From Butyrivibrio fibrisolvens 16/4 (GTDB taxonomy: Bacteria; Bacillota; Clostridia; Lachnospirales; Lachnospiraceae), in the NCBI GenBank assembly GCA_000209815.1, contig FP929036.1:1199110-1263109 (forward strand): a DNA stretch of 64,000 nt, in the 5' to 3' direction. Position numbers and translations under genes: made by a program. The notes beneath the pieces are model-generated. The model was not told the origin of the DNA and did no database searches. It saw nothing but the letters and a program-made list of their open reading frames with translations. This document shows positions 8,367-56,148 of the stretch, piece by piece. Positions within the stretch are counted from its first letter, which is position 1, and each line of letters starts with the position of its first letter.

Positions 8367-9272
8367 TTATAGAGAAAAAATTATTCCAGCGATTAGTGAA
8401 ATAGTAAATGCAGTATTGATGATTATGAAGTTTCTTATTGAGGTAATAAAGGTTTTTGCTTTTATCTGCTCCGCCCTAAAAATATTGATGTTCTTTTGTA
8501 CCAAAGGGAAGGATAAAACAAAAATAAGGCTTATTACAGGAAGGACCTTTGTTATTACCATAAGTATTACAGCTACGTAGCAAAGATAATAGAGAATGGC
8601 ATACAAGTTTACTGCAGCCTTTCTTCCTATATAGAAGACCAGTGTGTGTCGGTTTACAGCTACATCCTTTTCCAAATCACAGGTATTGTTAGCTAACATA
8701 ATATTAGAAGTTGTGAAAGTGGTTACAAGTGAATATATGAGGAATGAAACCAAAGGCCATACCATAAATTTGATATTTATGGCTTCTAGGCTTAAATCCA
8801 GTCGGATATAGTCATCTGGAGTGTTTAGATAAAACATCAAAAATGGAATAAGCATTCCATAGGCAATGCCTGAAAATAATTCACCAAGAGGTATACGTGA
8901 GATTGGAAGAGGACCGAAGGTGTAGAAGATACCAAGTAAAAAGCAAAGCCCACCAATTAGTAGTACAAGGATTCCACCACGGTATGCCAGATAAAGGCCC
9001 ATTATGGTGCTTATTGCAAGCATTGTAATAATGATGACGAATGATAATTTGCGGTTAAGTGGCAGCATTTCAGGATAATCCTTGCTGTCTATATAATTGT
9101 TAATTGCTGTGGTGGTTAAATCAAAAATAAAGGCTGCAATTACAAATACAACCGTCACTGAAAGGTCGATTTCTTTCTTGTTTAAAATCATAAAAAGTAT
9201 GGCGTTTAGCATAGCATAAACGCTTGTTATTTTCGTCTGAATCTCTACATATTTCAGGAATTTCTTAATCAT
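8367..9272 (-). CDS. dmkA: UbiA-family prenyltransferase (DmkA-like, demethylmenaquinone synthesis)
   Basis: 301 residues from the ATG at 9272, preceded by GAGGTG; a longer start at 9314 adds an unlikely N-terminus. Eight or nine membrane segments and the two Asp-rich motifs of UbiA enzymes are visible: NNYIDSKD near residue 76 and NNTCDLEKD near 197. It attaches a polyprenyl chain to a naphthoate head group in the membrane. It is divergent from the NDH-2 gene and belongs with the polyprenyl synthase at 11478; in Listeria the matching pair makes the quinone dedicated to extracellular electron transfer. Confidence 0.82.
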   Translation of the reverse strand: MIKKFLKYVEIQTKITSVYAMLNAILFMILNKKEIDLSVTVVFVIAAFIFDLTTTAINNYIDSKDYPEMLPLNRKLSFVIIITMLAISTIMGLYLAYRGGILVLLIGGLCFLLGIFYTFGPLPISRIPLGELFSGIAYGMLIPFLMFYLNTPDDYIRLDLSLEAINIKFMVWPLVSFLIYSLVTTFTTSNIMLANNTCDLEKDVAVNRHTLVFYIGRKAAVNLYAILYYLCYVAVILMVITKVLPVISLIFVLSFPLVQKNINIFRAEQIKAKTFITSIRNFIIINTAFTISLIAGIIFSL

Positions 9273-9392
9273 AATACACCTCATTTGGGAAACTGTCGTT
9301 AAAAATAAACGCAAACTTTTGTTAATTATAGCATACTTGCGGGGGAACGGAAGGATTTAATCGAATTTACACAAATATGATTGAATTATATC

Positions 9393-9421
9393 TTGTTGCG
9401 CGCAATTAAACATGGTAAAAT
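9393..9421 (+). promoter_or_regulatory. Putative promoter of the electron-transfer operon
   Basis: TTGTTG (9393-9398), 17-base spacer, TAAAAT (9416-9421). It leaves a ~60-base leader before the NDH-2 ATG, which has an AAAGAAAGGG ribosome site. No other good promoter is seen between the two divergent genes. Confidence 0.5.
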
Positions 9422-9487
9422 GAACATGCATTTTATGTTTAGTAGAGTGCATGTAAAACAAGATTTAATTAAAGAAAGGGTTAAGAA

Positions 9488-11485
9488 ATGAACAGGATTG
9501 TAGTTATCGGTGCAGGCTATGCGGGTGTACTGGCTACAAAAAAGCTAGAGAAAAAGCTTCGTAAGAAGGGTCTGGCTGACGCGACAGAAATTACTATTAT
9601 TGACAAGCATCCGTACCACACAATGCTGACAGAGCTTCACGAAGTGGCAGCATGTAGAGTAGGCGAAGAAAGCATAAAGATGAATCTTAAGCAGATCTTT
9701 GCGGGAAGAAAGGTCAATGTTGTTTTAGATGAGGTTTCAAATGTAGACTTCACTGAAAAGAAGATTCAGGGTAGAAATCAGGTATATGAGTACGACTATC
9801 TGGTATTGGCAGCAGGTTCTAAGCCAACATACTTTGGAGTTGAAGGAGCAGAGGAACATAGCTACTCACTTTGGTCATATGACGATGCAGTTAAGCTTAG
9901 AGACAGAATTCACGATTGTTTCAGACTTGCTGCAGATGAGACTGATCCTGCAAAGAAGAAAGAGCTTCTTAGCTTTTATGTTGTAGGTGCTGGTTTCACA
10001 GGTGTAGAAATGGTTGGTGAGCTTGCTGAGTACGCACCAATCCTTTGCAAAAGATTTGGAATCGATAGAGAGGACGTTACCATCGTTGATGTTGATGGTC
10101 TTTCACGTCCAGTACCTATCTTGCCAGAGAAGCTTTCTAATAAGGTAGATAAGCGTCTTAGAAAGATGGGCGTAGATGTAGTTATGAACGCCAGCGTTGT
10201 TGGTGTTGGCGAAAACTTCATCAAGCTTAAGAAAAATGATCAGGTTACAGAGCATGTTGCTGGTACAGTTATCTGGACAGCAGGTATCGAAAGCTCTGAG
10301 CTTACAACTGAATTGGCATCACGTCTTGCAAGTGGCGGTAGAGGCAGAATTCAGGTAGATGAATATCTTCGTTCTGTAGACAATGAAAATGTATACGTAA
10401 TCGGAGATAACATGCTTTACACAGCACCAGGTGAGGAGAGACCAGTTCCTCAGATGGTTGAGAATGCAGAGCATTCAGCAGCTACAGTTGCAAAGAACAT
10501 TGTTGCTGAGATTACAAAGAGCGGAAAACAGGAAGCATACAATCCTAAGTTCCATGGCGTAATGGTTTGTGTAGGTGGTAGATACGGCGTAGCAAGAGGC
10601 GGATTAGCAAAGCACCAGATTAACTTTGCTTCATTCTTTGCTATGTTTGCAAAGCACTTTATCAATATTATCTATTTCATCCAGGTTATGGGATGGACAA
10701 AGGTATTTAGCTACCTTAAGCACGAATTCTTTACTATTAGAAATAGACGAAGCTTTTTAGGAGGCCATTTCTCAAACAGAACACCAAGCTTTATGTTGGT
10801 TGCACTTAGAATTTGGCTAGGAATGGTTTGGGTTTTTGAAGGTGTTATGAAGATTGTCGAAGGCTGGTTCGTGGAACCAAAGCTTGCTGGCTTCTTCGGT
10901 GGCGCTAATAGCTGGTTTGATTCACTTCTTGGAAGAATTGACCCAGCGGCAGTTGATGCAGCGGCTTCGGCTTCTACAGAGGCAGTAGATACAGTGGCTT
11001 CAGCTTCTACTGCGGTTGCAGATGCAGCAGTTAGCACAGGTACAGTTATCTTTGACTGGAACCTAAAGCTATTCGAGTTAATCCTTGTTTCAGGCACAGA
11101 GCTTGCAAAGTCTACAATCACTGATATCGCATTTAAGATTCAGGTTCCATTTGTAGATTGGTTTGTTGAGAACGGCGTTCTCGGTTCTGATGGAATGCAG
11201 ATGGCTATGCAGATTGGAATTACAGTAGTACAGATTTTAATTGGTCTTGGACTTATTGCTGGTTGCTTTACATTCCTTTCATCTGCTGTATCACTTGTAC
11301 TTCAGGCAATGTTCGTTACTACAACCGGATTATATCTCAATACATTCTGGATGATTTTTGCAGGTATTGCAGTATTGTTCGGTGGTGGTTATACATTCGG
11401 TATTGACTATTACCTTATGCCATTCTTGAAAGAGAAGTGGAAGAAGGTTAGATGGGCAAGAAAGTGGTATCTCTACAATGAATAA
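9488..11485 (+). CDS. ndh2: Membrane-extended type II NADH dehydrogenase (NDH-2)
   Basis: 665 residues. Residues 1-430 are the NDH-2 flavoprotein: FAD Rossmann motif VVIGAGYAGVLA at the N-terminus, NADH motif FYVVGAGFTGVEMVGELAEYAP near 165-190, and the VYVIGDN FAD motif near 310. The C-terminal ~230 residues add several membrane segments in a DoxX-like arrangement, with an odd Ala/Ser/Val-rich linker near 496-520. NDH-2 with this extension is the signature of flavin-based extracellular electron transfer. It passes electrons from NADH to the locus-specific quinone. It overlaps the polyprenyl synthase gene by 8 bases. Confidence 0.9.
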   Translation: MNRIVVIGAGYAGVLATKKLEKKLRKKGLADATEITIIDKHPYHTMLTELHEVAACRVGEESIKMNLKQIFAGRKVNVVLDEVSNVDFTEKKIQGRNQVYEYDYLVLAAGSKPTYFGVEGAEEHSYSLWSYDDAVKLRDRIHDCFRLAADETDPAKKKELLSFYVVGAGFTGVEMVGELAEYAPILCKRFGIDREDVTIVDVDGLSRPVPILPEKLSNKVDKRLRKMGVDVVMNASVVGVGENFIKLKKNDQVTEHVAGTVIWTAGIESSELTTELASRLASGGRGRIQVDEYLRSVDNENVYVIGDNMLYTAPGEERPVPQMVENAEHSAATVAKNIVAEITKSGKQEAYNPKFHGVMVCVGGRYGVARGGLAKHQINFASFFAMFAKHFINIIYFIQVMGWTKVFSYLKHEFFTIRNRRSFLGGHFSNRTPSFMLVALRIWLGMVWVFEGVMKIVEGWFVEPKLAGFFGGANSWFDSLLGRIDPAAVDAAASASTEAVDTVASASTAVADAAVSTGTVIFDWNLKLFELILVSGTELAKSTITDIAFKIQVPFVDWFVENGVLGSDGMQMAMQIGITVVQILIGLGLIAGCFTFLSSAVSLVLQAMFVTTTGLYLNTFWMIFAGIAVLFGGGYTFGIDYYLMPFLKEKWKKVRWARKWYLYNE

Positions 11486-12436
11486 AAACGTGTTAGAGTT
11501 TGACGCTGCATTTGAAATGGTTAAGCAGGAAACCAAGAGAATACTTCATAGTGGCCCTTCGCTGATTAGCAATTACACAGGCTATCTGTCTGATGCTACA
11601 GGGAAGATGATGAGAGCATCGGCTCTTTTGGCAGCTTCTATGAATGAAGAGGGAATGGTTCCTTATGATGCAGTTATCTTTGCTTCTGCAGTTGAAATCT
11701 TACACTTAGCAACATTGGTTCATGACGATATTATGGATGACGCTGACACTCGAAGAGGTCTTATTACTCTTCAGAAGAAAGCAGGAAAGAGAACTGCAGT
11801 AATATGCGGAGACTATCTACTTGCGGCGGCAATAAACGAATTATCAAAGGTTGTAACAGATGAGAAGTACAAAAAATTCAACTTCTCAAGATATGTTGAA
11901 AGCATTGCTTTAGGAGAGCTTAGACAAAATATCAACAACAGAAATTTCAGACTAAAAACATTCAGATATTTGTCTATTATCGACGGTAAAACCGCAGCTC
12001 TTTTTGAGGCAGCTTACCACGCTGGAGCCCTGGCGGGAGATGCGGACGAACAGCAGATAAAGCTTTTCAGAAAGCTCGGCCGCTATACAGGCATTATTTT
12101 CCAGCTAACAGATGATTGCATTGATTTTGAAAATACTAAAGAGACAGCGCTAAAGCCTGTTATGTCAGATTTTCAAAATGGAGTTGTTACATTACCACTG
12201 ATTCATACATTTTCTAAAAATCCTTCATTGATAGAAAAAGCAGAGAAAAATCAATTATCTACAGAGGAAATGTATCAACAGGTAATGAAGGCTGGGGGAG
12301 TGGAATTTACTCATCAGCTTGCGAAAGACTATTACGAAAAAGCTACTCGTACTGCAAATAGTCTTTCACTTAACAAGATGCAACAAAAATCCTTTTAGGC
12401 TTATTAGAGAGAGCATATGTGGGATTGAAGAAATAA
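11478..12436 (+). CDS. dmkB: Polyprenyl diphosphate synthase (DmkB-like), frameshifted near the C-terminus
   Basis: Trans-prenyltransferase with both Asp-rich motifs, DDIMDDAD near residue 80 and DDCIDFE near 214, plus the GKMMRA substrate motif. The uninterrupted frame stops at 12398 after QQKSF. One extra T in the run at 12393-12396 restores LGLLERAYVGLKK ending at 12436, which matches the usual family C-terminus. It makes the isoprenoid tail used by the UbiA enzyme. Overlap with the NDH-2 gene implies translational coupling. Confidence 0.85.
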
Positions 12437-12490
12437 TGATATTAATGACATAAGTCACTAATATAAAGCAATTAAAGAAAGGATTTAAAC

Positions 12491-13564
12491 ATGAAGAAAA
12501 GAATTTTAGCACTTATGTGCACAACAGCAGTTCTTGCATCAGCATTTGTTGCTTGTGGTTCTGAGGAGGCAGATACAGCTTCTACTGCTCCTGCAACTAC
12601 AGAGGAGTCAGCAGCTGAGACAACAAATACTGTAGCAGCAGGTAGCCTTTTAACAGGTTTAGGTACTAGCGTATCAATCGCTGACTCAAAGGACGCAGCT
12701 GATGGAAGTGATGGTACAGCACAGGTTGATGCTACTATCGCAGCAGTTACAGTTGATTCAGAGGGAAAGGTTGTTGAGTGTAAAATCGATATTGCTCAGA
12801 CAAAGATTGGCATTTCGGGAAGTGGTGCAATCACATCTGATTTAAATGCAGAGTATCCTTCAAAGAGAGAGCTCGGTGATGACTATGGTATGAAGAAGGC
12901 TTCTGTTATTGGTAAGGAATGGTACGAGCAGGCTGATGCTTTCGCAGCTTGGACAGTTGGTAAGACAGCTTCTGAGATTAGCGGCATGAGCATTGATCAG
13001 GGTCTTGCAGGTGATGCAGATCTTGCAGCTTCAGTTTCTATTCACGTAACAGGCTTCCAGTCTGCAGTTCTTGAGGCTATTAACAAGGCAGTAGCTGGCG
13101 GTGCAGCTGCTGGAGATAAGCTTGGTCTTGGCGTTACTACAAACATTGCTAAGTCTACAGACGCTAGTGCTGATGCAGAAGGTGTTGCTGAGGCATACAC
13201 AACTATTTCTGTTCTTACAGTAAATGGCGATGGCGTTATCACAAGCTCAATCCTTGATGCAGTTCAGGCAAAGGTTTCATTTAACGCTGATGGTATGATC
13301 ACAGCAGATTTATCAGCAGATTTACCTAGCAAGAACGAGCTCGGCGATGCTTATGGCATGAAGAGCGCTTCTGCTATCGGTAAGGAATGGAATGAGCAGG
13401 CTCAGGCTTATGCTGAGTGGACAGTTGGTAAGACAGTTGACGATGTAAACGGCCTTCAGTTAACAGAAGGAAAGGTTGCTGACGAAGATCTTGCAGCTTC
13501 AGTTTCAGTTCATGTAACAGATTTTAATAATGTAATTTCAAAAGCTGTTGCAAGCGCAGAATAA
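12491..13564 (+). CDS. pplA: PplA-like lipoprotein with two FMN-binding domains
   Basis: 357 residues with a lipoprotein signal (MKKRILALMCTTAVLA, lipobox ending VACG with Cys 22), a Thr/Ala-rich linker, then two repeats of about 140 residues. Each repeat ends in nearly the same block: DLAASVSIHV near 180 and DLAASVSVHV near 345. These are the likely flavinylation sites, Asp-x-x plus a downstream Ser/Thr where FMN is attached by an ApbE enzyme. The second repeat also repeats ELGDxYGMK and KEWxEQA. It is the extracellular carrier that passes electrons out of the cell. The modified residue being Ser rather than Thr is worth noting. Confidence 0.85.
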   Translation: MKKRILALMCTTAVLASAFVACGSEEADTASTAPATTEESAAETTNTVAAGSLLTGLGTSVSIADSKDAADGSDGTAQVDATIAAVTVDSEGKVVECKIDIAQTKIGISGSGAITSDLNAEYPSKRELGDDYGMKKASVIGKEWYEQADAFAAWTVGKTASEISGMSIDQGLAGDADLAASVSIHVTGFQSAVLEAINKAVAGGAAAGDKLGLGVTTNIAKSTDASADAEGVAEAYTTISVLTVNGDGVITSSILDAVQAKVSFNADGMITADLSADLPSKNELGDAYGMKSASAIGKEWNEQAQAYAEWTVGKTVDDVNGLQLTEGKVADEDLAASVSVHVTDFNNVISKAVASAE

Positions 13565-13580
13565 TTATCTTAGAATTTTA

Positions 13581-13614
13581 GGGAGTGCTTTTTACAGGCA
13601 CTCCCTGTTTTTGT
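13581..13614 (+). terminator. Terminator or attenuator after the FMN lipoprotein gene
   Basis: GGGAGTGC/GCACTCCC stem (13581-13588 with 13598-13605) followed by TGTTTTTG. It separates the abundant lipoprotein from apbE, which begins 36 bases on, so it probably lowers expression of the downstream genes. Confidence 0.75.
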
Positions 13615-13640
13615 TTTAAGATATTGATTGGTGGATATTT

Positions 13641-14717
13641 ATGAATAAGGGAAAGATTTTAGGCGTTATTTTAATAGTTTTATTGATTGTTTTTATAGTA
13701 TTTACAAGAAAAGGTCTTTTTGGAAAGGGAGATGTGGCAGAGGAGCAGAATAGATATACAGCTACATTTATAGACATTTTTGATACCAGAACAGAAATTG
13801 TTGGATATGCTCCTACAGAGGATGAATTTTCAAAGAAGGCTACAGCACTTAGAGAAGAGCTTATTAATTACAATAATCTTTATGATATTTATAATGATTA
13901 TGAAGGTGTAAATAATATTAAAACAATCAATGACAATGCAGGCCTTCAGCCGGTTGTTGTAGATGAAAAAATAATAGACCTTCTTAAATTTAGCAAGGAA
14001 ATGTATGCAGCTACAGATGGAAGAGTAAATATTGCCATGGGTTCGGTGCTTTCTATCTGGCATCGCTATAGAGAGGCTGGTGTAGACGACCCTGAGAATG
14101 CTAAGCTCCCACCCTTTGAGGAGCTTCAGGCAGCAGCCCAGCACACAGATATAGAAAATCTTATTATCGATGAGACAGCAAAGACGGTTTATTTACAGGA
14201 TCCTGAAATGTCTCTTGATGTGGGAAGTACAGCAAAGGGCTATGCTGCCCAAAAGACTATGGAGTTTGCCAAGGATTCTGGGTATTCCAATATGTTGCTC
14301 AGCCTTGGTGGAAACATTGCTGGTATAGATGGACGCATTGACGGTACTCCTTTTAGACTGGGCATCCAGAATCCTGATTTGGATAGTGATGTAGAATATA
14401 TTAAAAAGGTAGATATTAAAGATGGACAATGTGTTGTATCAAGCGGTGATTACCAGAGATTTTACGAGGTAGATGGAAAAAGATATTGTCATATCATAAA
14501 TCCTGACACACTTTTCCCATCAGATACTTTTGCACAGGTTTCTATAATCACAGATGATTCTGGAATGGCGGATGCATACTCTACAGCACTTTATAATATG
14601 ACTATCGAAGAGGGATTAGAATTCGTAAATACGAATGAGAATATAGAGGCAATGTGGGTATATGCAGATGGAAGCATAGTTTACTCAGATAACTTTGAAC
14701 AGTATTTAGTAGAATAA
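13641..14717 (+). CDS. apbE: FAD:protein FMN transferase (ApbE/FmnB)
   Basis: 358 residues with one N-terminal membrane anchor (residues 5-24). ApbE features: DIFDTRTEI at the start of the domain, MGSVLSIWHRYR, the SLDVGSTAKGYAAQK block, and LLSLGGNIAGIDG. The late DDSGMADAYSTALYNM segment contributes the Mg2+ and catalytic positions. It transfers FMN from FAD to Ser/Thr on extracytoplasmic proteins; the lipoprotein encoded just upstream is the obvious substrate. Confidence 0.88.
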   Translation: MNKGKILGVILIVLLIVFIVFTRKGLFGKGDVAEEQNRYTATFIDIFDTRTEIVGYAPTEDEFSKKATALREELINYNNLYDIYNDYEGVNNIKTINDNAGLQPVVVDEKIIDLLKFSKEMYAATDGRVNIAMGSVLSIWHRYREAGVDDPENAKLPPFEELQAAAQHTDIENLIIDETAKTVYLQDPEMSLDVGSTAKGYAAQKTMEFAKDSGYSNMLLSLGGNIAGIDGRIDGTPFRLGIQNPDLDSDVEYIKKVDIKDGQCVVSSGDYQRFYEVDGKRYCHIINPDTLFPSDTFAQVSIITDDSGMADAYSTALYNMTIEEGLEFVNTNENIEAMWVYADGSIVYSDNFEQYLVE

Positions 14718-14721
14718 AAAT

Positions 14722-15099
14722 ATGAAAAGAAATGACATTATTTTAATAGCAGTTCTTTTGGCGGTATCCATTGGGCTGCTGGTAGGTGTAAATATATACA
14801 GGAAAAACAATACCTCTGACAGTGCTAATGTAGAGGTAACGGTAGATGGAAAGGTATATGGAACCTATCCTTTGGATGAAGATCGAAAAGAGCGAATAGA
14901 GCTGTCTGATGGTTCTTATAATATCCTAAAGATTTCTGATGGCAAGGCTAGTGTTATCGAAGCCAGCTGTCCAGATAAAATCTGCGTTAATACAGCGGAT
15001 ATTCATTACACAGACGAGACTATTGTATGTTTGCCAAACAAGGTTGTTGTTAAAATTGTTAATGGAGAGGAAAACGATGTTGATGGAATGACTCGTTAA
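14722..15099 (+). CDS. eetA: EetA-like NusG domain II protein
   Basis: 125 residues starting 4 bases after apbE: an N-terminal membrane segment (residues 6-24), then an extracellular NusG domain II-like beta domain with the diagnostic CPDKICV segment near residue 90. Proteins of this family sit beside EetB in the electron-transfer loci of Listeria and relatives. Its exact role is unknown. Confidence 0.82.
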   Translation: MKRNDIILIAVLLAVSIGLLVGVNIYRKNNTSDSANVEVTVDGKVYGTYPLDEDRKERIELSDGSYNILKISDGKASVIEASCPDKICVNTADIHYTDETIVCLPNKVVVKIVNGEENDVDGMTR

Positions 15100-15120
15100 T
15101 CCATCAATTGTTTATAAGAT

Positions 15121-15742
15121 ATGAAGACTAAGAAAATAACATTAATAGGATTGCTTATTGCTCTTGCCTTTGTTCTTTCTTATGTGGAGTTTTTGCTTCC
15201 ACTTAGCATTGGCATTCCAGGTGCAAAAATTGGACTAGCCAATCTGGCTATTATGGTGGCGCTGTTTCTTTTAGGATGGCAGGATGCACTAATGCTTTCT
15301 ATCGTCAGGGTAATATTGGTTGGATTTACCTTTGGAAACATGGCTATGATGATGTATTCCCTTGCAGGAGCTGCACTTTCTTTTGCGGCTATGCTCATAG
15401 CTAAAAAACAAAAAGTTTTCTATTACCGGTGTCAGTGTCATAGGTGGTGTGTTCCACAATGTTGGCCAGATACTTGTGGCAATGGCTGTTTTAGAGACTG
15501 AGCAGTTGATTTATTATCTGCCATTTCTCATTGTAATAGGAACTATCTCAGGAATAGTTATCGGAATAATAGCATCTATGATTCACAAACGTATAAAGGG
15601 AATAAGTAATCTTTTTAATAATGTTCTTTCTGCTATAGAAAGTGTTGATAAGTTGGCGTTATGGTTGCATTATTGTGGGCTTTTGCGTTATACTCTAACC
15701 GGTTCAAAAGTTTTATTAATTACTAATTATATGCACAGATAG
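15121..15742 (+). CDS. eetB: EetB-like Gx transporter membrane protein (frameshifted)
   Basis: The N-terminal half (MKTKKITLIGLLIALAF, PLSIGIPGAKIGLANLAI) matches the Gx transporter/HepS component I family, related to ECF S-components. The frame breaks near 15416-15424, where one surplus base separates KKQKVF from ITGVSVIGGVFHNVGQILVAM; removing it gives one protein of about 206 residues. Its last ~40 residues are poorly membrane-like, so another indel near 15600-15650 is possible. It is needed with EetA and ApbE for extracellular flavinylation, perhaps by supplying FAD. Confidence 0.75.
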
Positions 15743-15750
15743 GAAATATT

Positions 15751-16637
15751 ATGGGTGAGTATGTTATTAGCTGTTGCTCAACAGCAGATGTTACAGAAGA
15801 ATATTTAAAGGAAAAAATATAGAGCATATTTGTTTTCATTACTATTTAGATGATGTTGCTTATACAGATGATTTGTTTAAATCAATGTCAGCCAAGGATT
15901 TTTATCAGGCTATGGTTGATGGGGCAATGACTCGTACTTCACAGGTTAATGCTGACGAGTTTGTTCAGTACTTCCGTCATTTTTTGGAGGAAGGAAAGGA
16001 TGTGCTTCACATTACACTTTCAGGTGGTCTTTCAGGTGTTATCAATTCAGCTAAGATTGCTGCAGAGGAGCTTAAGGAAGAGTTTCCTGATAGAAGAGTG
16101 GTAGTATTTGATAGTCTTACAGCTTCAGCAGGCTATGGTTTATTTATGGATAAGCTTGCTTCATTAAGAGATGAGGGCTACGATTTCGATAGACTTGTTA
16201 ACTGGACAAATGGACATATCCAGAATCAGAATACCTGGTTCTTTACAACAGACCTTACATTCTTTATCAGAGGTGGTCGAGTATCAAAGCTTTCAGGATG
16301 GTTTGGTACAGCTCTTAACATCTGTCCTTTACTTAATGTTAATGACGAAGGAAAGCTTTGCCCTAGACAGAAATGCCGTGGCAAAAAGATGGTTAAGCGT
16401 GCAGCCTTAGAGGCTATTAAGGATCGCATCGACAAGGGCGAGGATTATGATGAGAATATTTTCATCACACATTCTGTATGCTATGATGATGCAAGAGAGA
16501 TGGCAGATATGTTAGAATTTGCCTTCCCTAAGATGAAAGAGAAGATTCGTATTTTCGATATTGGACCTACAATCGGTGCTCATACAGGCCCAGGTACAGT
16601 AGCCATTGGCTTCTGGGGTTCATTAAAAGAACATTAA
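15751..16637 (+). CDS. DegV-family fatty-acid-binding protein (frameshifted)
   Basis: Starts MGEYVISCCSTADVTEEYL at 15751. One A is missing from the run at 15812-15817; adding it joins EKNIEHICFHYYLDD and gives about 295 residues, normal for DegV. The TSQVNADEF, ITLSGGLSG and FFIRGGRVSK motifs of lipid-binding DegV are present. Family members hold a fatty acid for FakA-type kinases; no FakA gene is visible here. It is a housekeeping gene next to, not obviously part of, the electron-transfer locus. Confidence 0.85.
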
Positions 16638-33440: not shown

Positions 33441-33655
33441 AGTAAGATCAAATAGTAAATAGGATTTCCAATCATTTGTGAATCCCATGAGCGTTAAAGT
33501 ATTAATCTCCCTTAAATTAAAATGACCCGACGTGGTCCGCATTGTTAAGAGGCGTGTCGGGTACTGTTGCTATTATGGTACGCTAGGCTGCGATTAAAAG
33601 CAATACTATATTATTGGGGCACTAGATGCCGAAAACGTTGATTTTCAAGGGATTG

Positions 33656-34214: not shown

Positions 34215-37019
34215 GTGTGACACGTTCCGCGTCCAAAACGGTGGGAATAACCGACAAAAGCGCGGCATAGGGTTAACGTTGAAAATAGACCCTAGAGAAC
34301 TGTATAACTGAAGTTTCAAATGAGAGGGTAACGCCTTGAAGGGAACTCACTAAAACTTCGAATGGCATAGTCAGTACAAGGATAATTGTCATAAGCTCGG
34401 GGAAGTCGCATGAAGCACACCCTAACGGGTAACGCCGAGGAAATCTATCTGGCGGCAGGTAATGTGTGTGACAGTGCGGGTGGGGTTACCATATGGTCAG
34501 AATGACGGTTTGGAATACCGTCTGACGAAATCCCGAATGTACGGCTCTAAACGGCATAGCCTTTAGAAATGAAGGTGCACCAAGAGGTGCGCAAGTGAGG
34601 TTAAGTAAAAGTTGTTAGTATGAAAGACCTTCTGTGTTCACGGGGCATAGGTATCTTAAGTTGATTCTTGAAGATAATACTTGCAGGGCTAAAGGGACAC
34701 CTAAGTGGTAACATTCCTAAGTTATACGGAACGTGGAAAGCAACCCAACGATAGTTGTTGTACCAACGTCAAAGAGTCGAGTCACGACGAAATCCGAAGC
34801 AGAAAAGGGCTGAGGTATAAGCGTGTTTGGGGTTGTGAGAGTAGGGGCACAGTACCTATGAAGCGGTGACAATAAGCCGTGGAGGGATAGCCCCAAGTCG
34901 TTATAGTAATCCTTTTCACATCTATATAGTAATCACCGAAAGGAGATTTTCATAGCTGTCGTGGTGCGACTAAGAAAAAATCATTCTCCGCAAGGGAGCT
35001 GGTTACTATGGCAAAAAGAATTGTAAACAAAGCGGAAAGAAATGCTGAAAGATACAGTGCAAAAGAGGTTGGCTATAAGCTGTATGCTGATAGCAAGGCG
35101 GACAAGGTATTTGACCGTCTTATGCCCCCTAATAGTGGCAGACCAAAATATACTGCTAGCATACCGCAACATTTGTAAGAACGGAGGTAGTAAGACCCCA
35201 GGTACGGATGGGAAAACAATAACGGATATACAGAAACTTAAAATAGAAAAGGTTATCCAAACAGTAAGAAATAAACTGAATTATTATCAGCCTAAAAAGG
35301 TTAGAAGAGTAGAAATTTTAAAAGATAATGGGAAAACAAGACCACTTGGAATTCCTAGCATCTGGGATAGACTAATTCAGCAGTGCATCCTACAAATCCT
35401 AGAGCCGATATGCGAGGCAAAATTTCATGAGCGGAACAATGGATTTAGACCATATCGCTCTACAGAAAACGCAATCGCACAATGTTATATGATGGCTCAG
35501 ATACAACATCTTCACTTTGTGGTAGATGTAGATATCGTTGGATTCTTTGATAACATCGACCATAGCAAGCTTATACGGCAACTTTGGGGCTTGGGCATAC
35601 AAGATAGAAAACTTATCATGATAATAAAACAAATGCTAAAAGCAGATATTTTGTTTAATGATGTGGTAATCACTCCTGAGACCGGAACGCCACAAGGCGG
35701 TATACTTTCACCACTACTGGCGAATGTAGTCCTTAATGAACTTGATTGGTGGATAGCGAGTCAATGGGAGATATTTAAAATCAAAGAAGGTATATCAGGA
35801 TTAGAATTCCCTAAAACTGATGCAGATGGAAATGTCTATACAGTAGATAGGTCGCAAAAATGGAAAAAGCTACGAAAGACAAGTAATCTCAAAGAAATGT
35901 ATATCGTGAGATATGCAGATGACTTTAAAATATTTTGTAGAGATTACAAATCAGCGAAGAAAACCATGGAAGCAACAAAGAAGTGGCTTGCAGAGAATCT
36001 TCATTTGCTAACGAGTGATGAAAAATCGGGCATAACAAATCTGCGAAAGAACTACACGACTTTCCTCGGGATTAAGTTTAAAGTAGTGCCAAAGGGCGAA
36101 AAGTGGGTTATAAAATCACATATTGCAGACAAGAGCGCTAAGAAAGTCACTCAAAAGTTACAAGACGCTTGGGGAGACATAAAGAACCCGAGTAACGCTA
36201 ATGACATCAACAGATATATTGATAGATTTAATGCGATGGTAGTTGGAATGCACAACTACTACAGTATGGCAACCCATGTCTGCGGAGACTTCTCGGACAT
36301 AGCTTTTAGGGCTGTAGGCAAAGCTAATGGAATGAACCACAACGGAAAATTCTTACCGCTTGAAAAACATGGAGAATTCACTAGTTTATTTCTGAAGGAT
36401 AGGTATGGAAAGTCTAAAAGGTGCAGATGGATAAAAGGTAGAGTAATTGTTCCTGTAAGCTATGTGCAGCACGTCCACCCTAAGTTTAAAAGGAGAGATG
36501 TTAACAAGTACATTCCAAAATATACGGATAACGAAAACTGTATTAGCTTTTCAGTCATGAAATATATGATGGAAAATGCTGAGTTATTCCCTAACCTTGA
36601 AATGGCAGATAATGCGTTATCGAGGTACATTGCTCAAAAAGGAAAGTGTGCCATTTTGCACACTGAACTCGTTATAGGGGATATGAGATGCCTACACATT
36701 AAACACCCCAAAGGCGAACGTAATGACACTTACAAAAATTTGATACTTGTATCAAAAGACATGGCAAGGGTTATTACCTCAGCAGATAAAGAAGTACTAA
36801 ATACGTATTTAAGGGAACTAAAACTTACTACCGAAATGCAAGATAAGATTAACAAACTTAGAGGTCTTAGAGACCTTGAACCTATACAATTCAAAGACTA
36901 TATAGGTGCTACAAATTGATTACTGACGATGGAACGCCGTGTGATGGGAAACTATCACGCACGGTGTGGAGCGGGGGAAAAGCCCGAGGTGATAACACCA
37001 GAGGCTTACCTATCGCTAT
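34215..37019 (+). mobile_element. Group II intron (2805 bp) inserted in traG
   Basis: The 5' end GTGTGACACG fits the GUGYG consensus, and the 3' end is ...CGCTAT. Domain V is recognisable near 36932-36967 as a GCCGTGTGATG/GAAA/CTATCACGCACGGT hairpin, followed by a domain VI-like hairpin with the ACCTATC end. Splicing at these points rejoins the TraG frame exactly, which fixes the boundaries. 34215-35007 is structured ribozyme sequence without a gene, and the intron-encoded protein sits in domain IV. Confidence 0.88.
35008..36919 (+). CDS. ltrA: Group II intron reverse transcriptase/maturase (frameshifted)
   Basis: Starts MAKRIVNKAERNAERYSAKE at 35008. A C5 run at 35125-35129 has one C too many; with four the frame continues MPLIVADQNILLAYRNICKNGG, giving about 637 residues. 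RT motifs follow in order: GKTRPLGIPSIWDRLIQQ, HERNNGFRPYRSTENAI, VVDVDIVGFFDNIDH, GTPQGGILSPLLANVVLNELD and the catalytic YADD in YIVRYADDFKIF. The maturase X domain follows. The C-terminal CAILHTELVIGDMRCLHIKHP segment resembles a degenerate HNH endonuclease. Confidence 0.92.
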
Positions 37020-56038: not shown

Positions 56039-56148
56039 ACAAGGATTTTGGGCGGGCGTCCAATACCTCCCGCATCTCTCGGAGTTATCTCCTGTCAAAC
56101 CATCGGCGTGTAGACGTGGACGAATTCTTCTACCTCCAAAATCCTTGT
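56039..56148. ncRNA. Structured element with a 13-bp closing stem
   Basis: 56039-56051 pairs perfectly with 56136-56148. Within the 84-base loop are GCGGG/CCCGC (56052-56073) and GGAG-TTAT-CTCC (56081-56092) hairpins. Just upstream is an ACGCCC...GGGCGT hairpin (55994-56020). Higher G+C than surroundings. Which strand is transcribed is not clear. Confidence 0.4.

Follow-up and report, generated by a model that had tools for sequence, protein, structure and literature searches.

A FLEET-type locus of Butyrivibrio fibrisolvens 16/4 and candidate flavin-attachment heptads in its NADH dehydrogenase NDH-2

Introduction

For flavin-based extracellular electron transfer (FLEET) in Gram-positive bacteria, we know of no settled path by which electrons reach the surface flavoprotein from quinol in the membrane. 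Here we analyze a FLEET-type locus in a 64,000 nt stretch of the genome of Butyrivibrio fibrisolvens 16/4 (contig FP929036.1, positions 1,199,110 to 1,263,109; the whole stretch is called “the window” below) and compare it with the closest described systems. In Lactiplantibacillus plantarum, riboflavin-dependent iron reduction needs Ndh2 as well as EetA/B, and does not need PplA, DmkA, or DmkB, for which the authors suggest an oxidoreductase or route yet to be identified (available sections of PMC9888254). The same species relies on exogenous 1,4-dihydroxy-2-naphthoate (DHNA), according to the available parts of PMC10746273 and PMC9888254. Covalent attachment of flavin mononucleotide (FMN) by ApbE has the reference heptad spacing D-x-x-[S/T]-G-A-[S/T] (PMC12052999, section 8). 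Such a heptad can serve to tag proteins with flavin, most efficiently at the ends of the chain, with less complete labeling in surface loops (PMC12052999, accessible text). In FMN_red proteins, an unstructured extension carries the flavin (PMC10979944, accessible text).

The locus extends from 8367 to 15742 of the window, with the gene order UbiA (minus strand), NDH-2, polyprenyl synthase, lipoprotein, ApbE, EetA, and EetB (all plus strand), flanked by an arabinofuranosidase gene upstream and a DegV gene downstream. A first-pass annotation had described these seven genes as one contiguous FLEET locus in a fibre-degrading clostridium. Family matches found all seven in place, and the assignment to FLEET in a Lachnospiraceae species is borne out by the gene families, the identity to Listeria Ndh2, the match of ApbE to PDB entry 7esa, and the recurrence of the locus in relatives. 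Typical FLEET features found here are an NDH-2 with a C-terminal membrane domain, a quinone branch with UbiA and polyprenyl synthase, and an extracytosolic ApbE/FmnB. The locus is a system of a known kind; what is perhaps new is a possible flavinylation of NDH-2, to which sequence statistics point. We somewhat favor the view that it is a clostridial FLEET variant with flavins on both the lipoprotein and NDH-2.

Results

Heptads in the membrane extension of NDH-2

NDH-2 (9488–11485, plus strand; PF07992, 2.7e-38) has a DoxX/DoxD-like C-terminal membrane extension and shares 34% identity with Listeria Ndh2 over 658 columns, extension included. Its DoxD match (0.0024) is below the family cut-off; that of Listeria Ndh2 to DoxX narrowly exceeds the cut-off. 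Hydropathy predicts membrane segments at residues 435–453, 576–594, and 614–639, so that one crossing precedes the first loop of the extension, which is rich in Ala and Ser (residues 479–521; 10922–11050). Lys and Arg number six in the 35 residues before the first segment, seven in the 23-residue tail, and six in the 121 residues between the first two segments, which suggests that the loop is probably on the outer face. It contains two predicted ApbE-type heptads, DAAASAS (10955–10975, predicted acceptor Ser496) and DTVASAS (10988–11008, predicted acceptor Ser507), both of which escaped the first-pass annotation.

The loop was compared with those of the best 80 of 170 NDH-2 relatives in named genomes, many of whose loci end at contig ends. 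Related loops are Ala-rich, 28–83 residues long, and carry one to three heptads per protein, e.g. DAVSAAT, DAVSSAT, DAVTSAT, and DAVSGAT. Three patterns were counted, i.e. a wide one (D..[STA][GSA][ACV][ST]), a stricter one (D..[ST][GSA]A[ST]), and the canonical one (D..[ST]GA[ST]). The wide pattern is present in 76 of the 81 NDH-2 sequences (window plus 80 loci). For the statistics, 76 unique loops from 80 proteins (L083 was dropped) were compared with 1000 composition-preserving shuffles. The stricter heptad occurs 84 times in 52 of the 76 loops, compared with a shuffle mean of 1.68 and a maximum of 6. The respective values are 132 occurrences in 72 loops versus 5.7 for the wide pattern, and 11 occurrences versus 0.31 for the canonical one, which is found in 11 of the 76 loops. 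The spacing is also regular: following the 181 Asp residues examined, Ala is found at +5 in 147 cases and Ser or Thr at +6 in 146.

The enrichment was also compared with sequences outside the loop and across clusters of similar proteins. The stricter heptad was found 85 times inside NDH-2 loops and not once in the remainder of these proteins (50,958 residues). At 70% identity the NDH-2 sequences form 19 clusters, 17 of which have the wide and 14 the stricter heptad; with one representative per cluster the stricter heptad is present in 12 of 19 (mean 0.27, maximum 3 in 2000 shuffles). In 866 other frames of the loci (at least 150 amino acids) it occurs eight times in 298,996 residues, and in comparable Ala/Ser-rich 40-mers of other frames twice in 103. 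Recent tandem slippage was rejected as the main source of the repeated heptads, because different codons are used at 155 of 320 shared residues, i.e. at about half of them. The heptads of the NDH-2 loop are thus far beyond chance.

These values bear on two explanations. The first is that the NDH-2 of FLEET may itself be a covalent flavoprotein on the outer face, with a loop carrying one to three FMNs attached by ApbE that would carry electrons away from the membrane, either to the lipoprotein or directly to external acceptors. This could apply across Clostridia and perhaps to Listeria and enterococci, and in Butyrivibrio and its relatives both substrates would share an altered site, D-x-x-A-S-[AV]-S. 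A flavinylated Ndh2 would predict, and could explain, the iron reduction of L. plantarum that is independent of PplA and dependent on Ndh2 and EetA/B. We regard the chances of this proposal as evenly balanced. The second, to which we give a lower though still considerable probability, is an ordinary FLEET system in which only the lipoprotein is flavinylated and the loop of NDH-2 serves as a spacer of low complexity, rich in Ala and Ser, with idle heptads. The Ala-rich composition and variable length of the loop fit a spacer, and the flavinylated FMN_red extensions sit beside a flavin-binding site (PMC10979944, accessible text), of which the NDH-2 loop has no known counterpart. In contrast, a spacer does not account for the exact spacing from Asp, or for the rarity of the heptad in shuffles and in comparable Ala/Ser-rich stretches of the neighboring proteins.

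Several points weigh against the variant with flavins on both the lipoprotein and NDH-2. Five of the 81 sequences have no wide heptad (L030, L050, L081, L084, and L083, whose open reading frame is split); in L030 and L084 the Asp seems, by eye, to be replaced by E or Q. The strict heptad is absent from the NDH-2 of the window, whose two relaxed heptads fit the wide pattern and not the stricter one with the strongest statistics, and the topology of its loop is based on hydropathy and charge. The lipoprotein site, DLAASVS, also departs from D-x-x-[S/T]-G-A-[S/T], and EetB is broken in the present assembly (see below). In other systems, flavinylation fell to half when a single G was changed to A or a single A to V, and Thr was a better acceptor than Ser (PMC12052999, section 8). 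Listeria Ndh2 and E. gilvus Ndh2 have SGAS and TGAS, respectively, in the equivalent loop, both without the Asp, and neither motif reaches significance by itself (shuffle P 0.060 and 0.072). The named substrates of Listeria FmnB are PplA and FrdA only, as far as the available sections of PMC9973259 and PMC9094743 go. The proteomic search in Listeria, however, allowed threonine flavinylation only (PMC9973259, available sections), so that a serine site such as that of the Listeria loop would go unseen. Flavinylation of NDH-2 was not found in print, in literature listings and the available sections of PMC9973259, PMC9094743, PMC9888254, and PMC10979944, which do not include the founding papers (Light 2018, 2019).

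Recurrence of the locus

The presence of the other genes in the 80 loci was determined with phmmer and the window proteins as queries (lipoprotein threshold at least 100 bits). The polyprenyl synthase was found in 77 loci, UbiA in 65, the lipoprotein in 63, ApbE in 62, EetB in 51, and EetA in 45. NDH-2, lipoprotein, and ApbE occur together in 58 loci and all seven genes in 36. Two main gene orders are seen. Loci with fewer genes are cut by contig ends, are diverged, or have genes missing. In one of them (L070:3373-6504), NDH-2 is directly followed by the lipoprotein, and ApbE, UbiA, and polyprenyl synthase were not detected in its 13.4 kb. The nearest named relatives by NDH-2 belong to Pseudobutyrivibrio, i.e. 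a metagenome-assembled genome (99% identity) and P. ruminis DSM 9787 (87%). Among 200 sampled genomes of the family, 16 including the own genome have a strong lipoprotein match (at least 137 bits); the other 28 genomes reported in this sample have matches of only about 26 bits or less.

The quinone branch and the supply of DHNA

UbiA (8367–9272, minus strand; PF01040, 1.4e-17) is annotated as a 1,4-dihydroxy-2-naphthoate prenyltransferase. Its best NCBIfam matches are DHNA polyprenyltransferase models, with scores below their cut-offs, and the ATG at 9272 is a likelier start than the TTG at 9314 with which the open reading frame begins. The polyprenyl diphosphate synthase is encoded at 11478–12398 (plus strand; PF00348, 6.2e-52).

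Genes for DHNA synthesis were searched in 64 genome entries, comprising the own genome, 15 genomes with a strong lipoprotein match, and the genomes that contain 48 of the 80 NDH-2 loci; identical coordinates show that at least five genomes were entered twice. MenB and MqnE were over the family cut-offs in none of the 64 entries, and MenD in three (two genomes, neither of them the own). Fourteen control genomes had MenB over the cut-off in seven, MenD in seven, and MqnE in two cases. In a set of 41 genomes (own plus 40 relatives), MenB was over the cut-off in none. Matches to related enzymes below the cut-offs are present in many genomes, and two further high MenD scorers reach 168 and 183 bits, also below the cut-off. 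The two MenD-positive genomes were rejected as cases of quinone synthesis: their genes (L138:10741-12474 and L139:8785-10560), which encode MenD-like thiamine-diphosphate enzymes, by eye lie in apparent surface-polysaccharide clusters.

The own genome, one contig of 3,164,379 bases, therefore has no recognized DHNA route by MenB, MenD, and MqnE over their cut-offs. Because the known synthesis genes are not over the cut-offs, DHNA is probably scavenged, i.e. imported. An own source of DHNA does not strictly define FLEET, since L. plantarum depends on an external supply as well. FmnA, the dedicated T component of an energy-coupling factor transporter (ECF-T), is not in the locus, and the one ECF-T gene of the genome (C1:2958854) is far away from it; a dedicated ECF-T is not general at eetB loci (291 of 4,214 genomes; PMC9973259, section 11). 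The description of the locus as “complete”, with all functions present, could thus not be upheld. For the rumen, the lack of recognized DHNA genes would imply an electron outlet that works only when neighbors supply the quinone precursor.

ApbE, Rnf, and distribution in the genus

ApbE (13641–14717, plus strand; PF02424, 1.9e-65) has one N-terminal membrane segment. Its best PDB match is the FAD:protein FMN transferase 7esa (8.9e-32), which we take to be Listeria FmnB. It is the only ApbE found in the genome, and the only FMN_bind protein, with the site DAISAAT, is encoded in an rnf cluster (assigned by gene order and sequence). The ApbE of the locus should hence also serve Rnf, and an apbE knockout would probably disturb Rnf, too. 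In RnfG-like frames of the genus the site is DAISAAT or DAISGAT in all 24 parsed cases, each with Thr in the acceptor position. In the own genome, RnfC and RnfD (names by eye) form one 760-residue frame (L135:5563-7845), which may be a real fusion or another indel.

Among 29 genomes of the genus, FMN_bind was found in 29, ApbE in 26, and the lipoprotein in 11; the three genomes without ApbE are 81–87% complete. Eight of the 11 genomes with the lipoprotein have a single ApbE, and in nine NDH-2 is beside the lipoprotein. In the fetched stretches of G210 (L172:9437-10633) and G203 (L174:9367-10479), lipoprotein and ApbE are present, and NDH-2, polyprenyl synthase, and UbiA are not. The FLEET locus is optional within the genus, which the first-pass annotation had overlooked together with the link between ApbE and Rnf. 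FMN_bind also occurs in frames of 1205–1586 residues in seven genus members. One of these, a 1339-residue frame next to ApbE in G201 (L147:9467-13483), combines FMN_bind with a subtilase domain (Peptidase_S8), for which G201 was the genome tested.

This distribution raises the question of whether the core of the locus is ApbE-EetA-EetB as a flavinylation service for Rnf, with FLEET as an optional addition that might be inactive when no DHNA is imported. The wider occurrence of FMN_bind and ApbE than of the lipoprotein agrees with such a service, as do the failure of DHNA synthesis genes to pass the cut-offs and the six genomes whose fetched stretch contains ApbE-EetA-EetB but neither NDH-2 nor the lipoprotein (neighbors were read in four). 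Furthermore, 572 clostridial genomes are known to have eetB colocalized with Rnf (PMC9973259, section 11). However, the FLEET genes are intact apart from the frameshifts discussed below, and diverged lineages have retained the set. We consider this explanation less likely than not, and a service for Rnf is also compatible with a FLEET system that is active when DHNA is available.

An exchangeable chromosomal slot

The position between the arabinofuranosidase and DegV genes is occupied differently in different genomes. It holds FLEET in the window and in G217, lipoprotein-ApbE-EetA-EetB in G210, and only ApbE-EetA-EetB in G202. G217 and G210 have a gap of about 4 kb before DegV, which is filled by other genes where it was read (G210). 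In G153, G208, and G220 the slot holds, besides a membrane protein, a different ApbE, EetA, and EetB, one more protein, which in G153 has a lipobox-like start (by eye). The membrane proteins of G153 and G208 were compared with Pfam, and FMN_bind was found in both and Ferric_reduct in G208 only. This alternative flavinylation module (G153, L144:8503-11876; G208, L155; G220, L157), whose EetA-EetB and flanking genes on either side correspond to those of the window, contains an FMN_bind membrane protein (DTISGAT in G153), a DAVTSAT protein, and another type of ApbE. Flavinylated system types of this kind and their link to eetB are known (PMC9973259, section 11).

The duplicated lipoprotein

The lipoprotein gene (12491–13564, plus strand; lipobox Cys codon 12554–12556) is PplA-like by place and architecture. 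It is an internal duplication, with repeats of 163 and 41 nt at a spacing of 468, and contains two DLAASVSxHV sites, at 13019–13039 (DLAASVS; predicted acceptor Ser codon 13037–13039) and 13487–13507 (predicted acceptor Ser codon 13505–13507); the predicted acceptors are Ser162 and Ser318 of the mature form. The two near-identical sites had been noted in the first-pass annotation, with Ser as the putative attachment residue, and both points agree with the present analysis; the “FMN domains” to which they had been assigned find no support in Pfam. FMN_bind (PF04205) is matched by none of 51 lipoprotein homologs (complete Pfam list, E values up to 0.003), which match three unrelated Pfam families with one member each and four unrelated NCBIfam models once each. 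No Pfam model fits the window lipoprotein, and no NCBIfam match is better than 0.036. The PplA proteins of Listeria and E. gilvus do match PF04205, and BLAST of the window lipoprotein against Listeria PplA revealed no similarity (E value 2.5). By sequence the lipoprotein is outside the PplA/FMN_bind family and is not recognizable as PplA, which is why we class the locus as a variant of FLEET.

A profile built from 51 members (of 79 sequences collected) matches PDB entry 2kzx (1.3e-6), whose SGAT aligns with the [AS]SVT column. The AlphaFold (AF2) models have a mean predicted local distance difference test score of 92.5 for the whole lipoprotein and 96.1 for its second domain. Among solved structures, domain 2 is closest to 3o6u, CPE2226 of Clostridium perfringens (Z 8.3, root mean square deviation 3.1, 107 aligned residues, 17% identity), two Z units above the next structure; RnfG of Acetobacterium woodii (9eri) follows at Z 4.2. 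The whole lipoprotein matches 3o6u at Z 5.7. NqrC is not among the structures listed, which does not speak against a relation. Foldseek searches of the PDB with either model gave no match below 0.001, and its top rows (IscU, MHC, and others) were rejected as relatives.

In DLAASVS, Asp precedes the last Ser by six residues, as in D-x-x-[S/T]-G-A-[S/T]. The column of the last Ser is Ser or Thr in 51 of 51 homologs at both sites (site 1, 40 Thr and 11 Ser; site 2, 43 Thr and 8 Ser). The predicted acceptor is therefore the second Ser, after Val; the first Ser of SVS was rejected, because its column also holds G, T, and N. The strict heptad is absent and a relaxed form is present, which has A in place of S/T, S in place of G, and V in place of A at the three positions that precede the acceptor. 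Over 62 loci, the acceptors of lipoprotein and NDH-2 tend to vary together: with Ser,Ser in the lipoprotein, the NDH-2 heptads are all Ser in 15, mixed in five, and all Thr in no locus, whereas with Thr,Thr they are all Thr in 33, all Ser in two, and mixed in one; in the remaining six, the lipoprotein has Ser,Thr or the second site is missing. The co-variation is striking but confounded by one clade, and is not used as proof.

That the protein is an unrelated repeat lipoprotein with a structural DLAASVS would agree with the missing FMN_bind match, the lack of similarity to PplA, and the three deviating positions, but is improbable in view of the acceptor column with Ser or Thr throughout, the profile link to 2kzx, the fold nearest to CPE2226 with RnfG at a lower score, and the presence of ApbE in 58 of 63 lipoprotein loci (exceptions L029, L041, L070, L076, and L077, some of which end nearby). 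If flavinylated, the family would add an ApbE substrate undetectable by Pfam surveys based on FMN_bind.

EetA, EetB, and frameshifts in the assembly

EetA (14722–15099, plus strand) is a NusG domain II protein (PF07009, 1.4e-31). EetB, a substrate-binding component of an energy-coupling factor transporter for export of flavin adenine dinucleotide (FAD; PF07456), was rightly reported as present; that it is in two pieces (15121–15742, plus strand) had been missed. Residues 1–101 (97% identity) and 97–167 (98.6%) of the intact EetB of L005 flank a frameshift at about 15404–15420. Because relatives have EetB intact (all 51 related loci in which it was found have a frame of 165 residues or more), the split is probably an assembly error. 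Homopolymer errors at A-runs are favored further by the fact that four frameshifts lie within about 9 kb, mostly at A-runs. Besides EetB these are in the DegV gene (about 15804–15816), in the last residues of the polyprenyl synthase (an apparent loss of one base near 12386, compared with L005), and at the start of the arabinofuranosidase (window about 6750, three frames read). At another position of the genome, ProA also seems by eye to be split (L135:14580-15673). A true pseudogene with a real mutation was considered and is less favored.

Other features of the window

No riboswitch was found upstream in the locus with Rfam at gathering thresholds. Elsewhere in the window, Rfam matches are group II introns (RF02004 and RF00029) at 34295–37019, a nearby abiF RNA at 33525–33561 on the other strand, and a skipping-rope RNA at 56044–56143.

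Discussion

The proposed electron path is as follows. NDH-2 would oxidize NADH on the inner face, as expected from its family, and pass the electrons to a prenylated naphthoquinone that UbiA and the polyprenyl synthase would make from imported DHNA. ApbE, supplied with FAD by EetB, would attach FMN outside the membrane to two substrates, i.e. the duplicated lipoprotein with its two sites and the flexible outer loop of NDH-2, which has two heptads in the window and between one and three in related proteins. These tethered flavins of the loop could take electrons from the quinol or from the membrane domain of NDH-2 itself, and deliver them to the lipoprotein or directly to an external acceptor. 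Respiration onto external acceptors, which the first-pass annotation had suggested, is likewise a prediction. If this is true, a flavinylated NDH-2 would supply the step from membrane to surface, and a single polypeptide would link NADH to the cell surface.

The reference loci for comparison are those of Listeria-type FLEET (L. monocytogenes NZ_LR134400.1 and E. gilvus NZ_CP030933.1). The membrane-extended NDH-2, the polyprenyl synthase, ApbE, a surface lipoprotein with two predicted sites, EetA, and EetB (split here) are shared. In the E. gilvus stretch, EetA and EetB appear as NusG_II and Gx transporter, and a menA-type prenyltransferase is present, as here. The differences are that FmnA is in the Listeria stretch and not beside the present locus, that the present lipoprotein cannot be recognized as PplA by sequence, that no DHNA synthesis genes are over the cut-offs, and that the NDH-2 loop has heptads led by Asp in place of the lone SGAS or TGAS of Listeria and E. 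gilvus.

The organism resembles L. plantarum as a fermenter that would need external DHNA (available parts of PMC10746273 and PMC9888254), a likeness drawn from the literature; it differs as a member of the Lachnospiraceae with an rnf cluster. CPE2226 of C. perfringens (3o6u), called a pheromone-precursor lipoprotein in the accessible text of PMC7074142, has a fold like that of one lipoprotein domain, and its solved chain of 120 residues compares with two domains here. PDB entry 2kzx, an “Uncharacterized protein”, has the canonical core motif and one matched stretch of 78 profile positions. Lastly, the ferric-reductase-like/FMN_bind module that takes the same slot with EetA-EetB in sister species resembles the MsrQ-like flavinylated systems, a type described in PMC9973259 to which we assign it ourselves, with an FMN_bind membrane protein in place of NDH-2 and the quinone enzymes.

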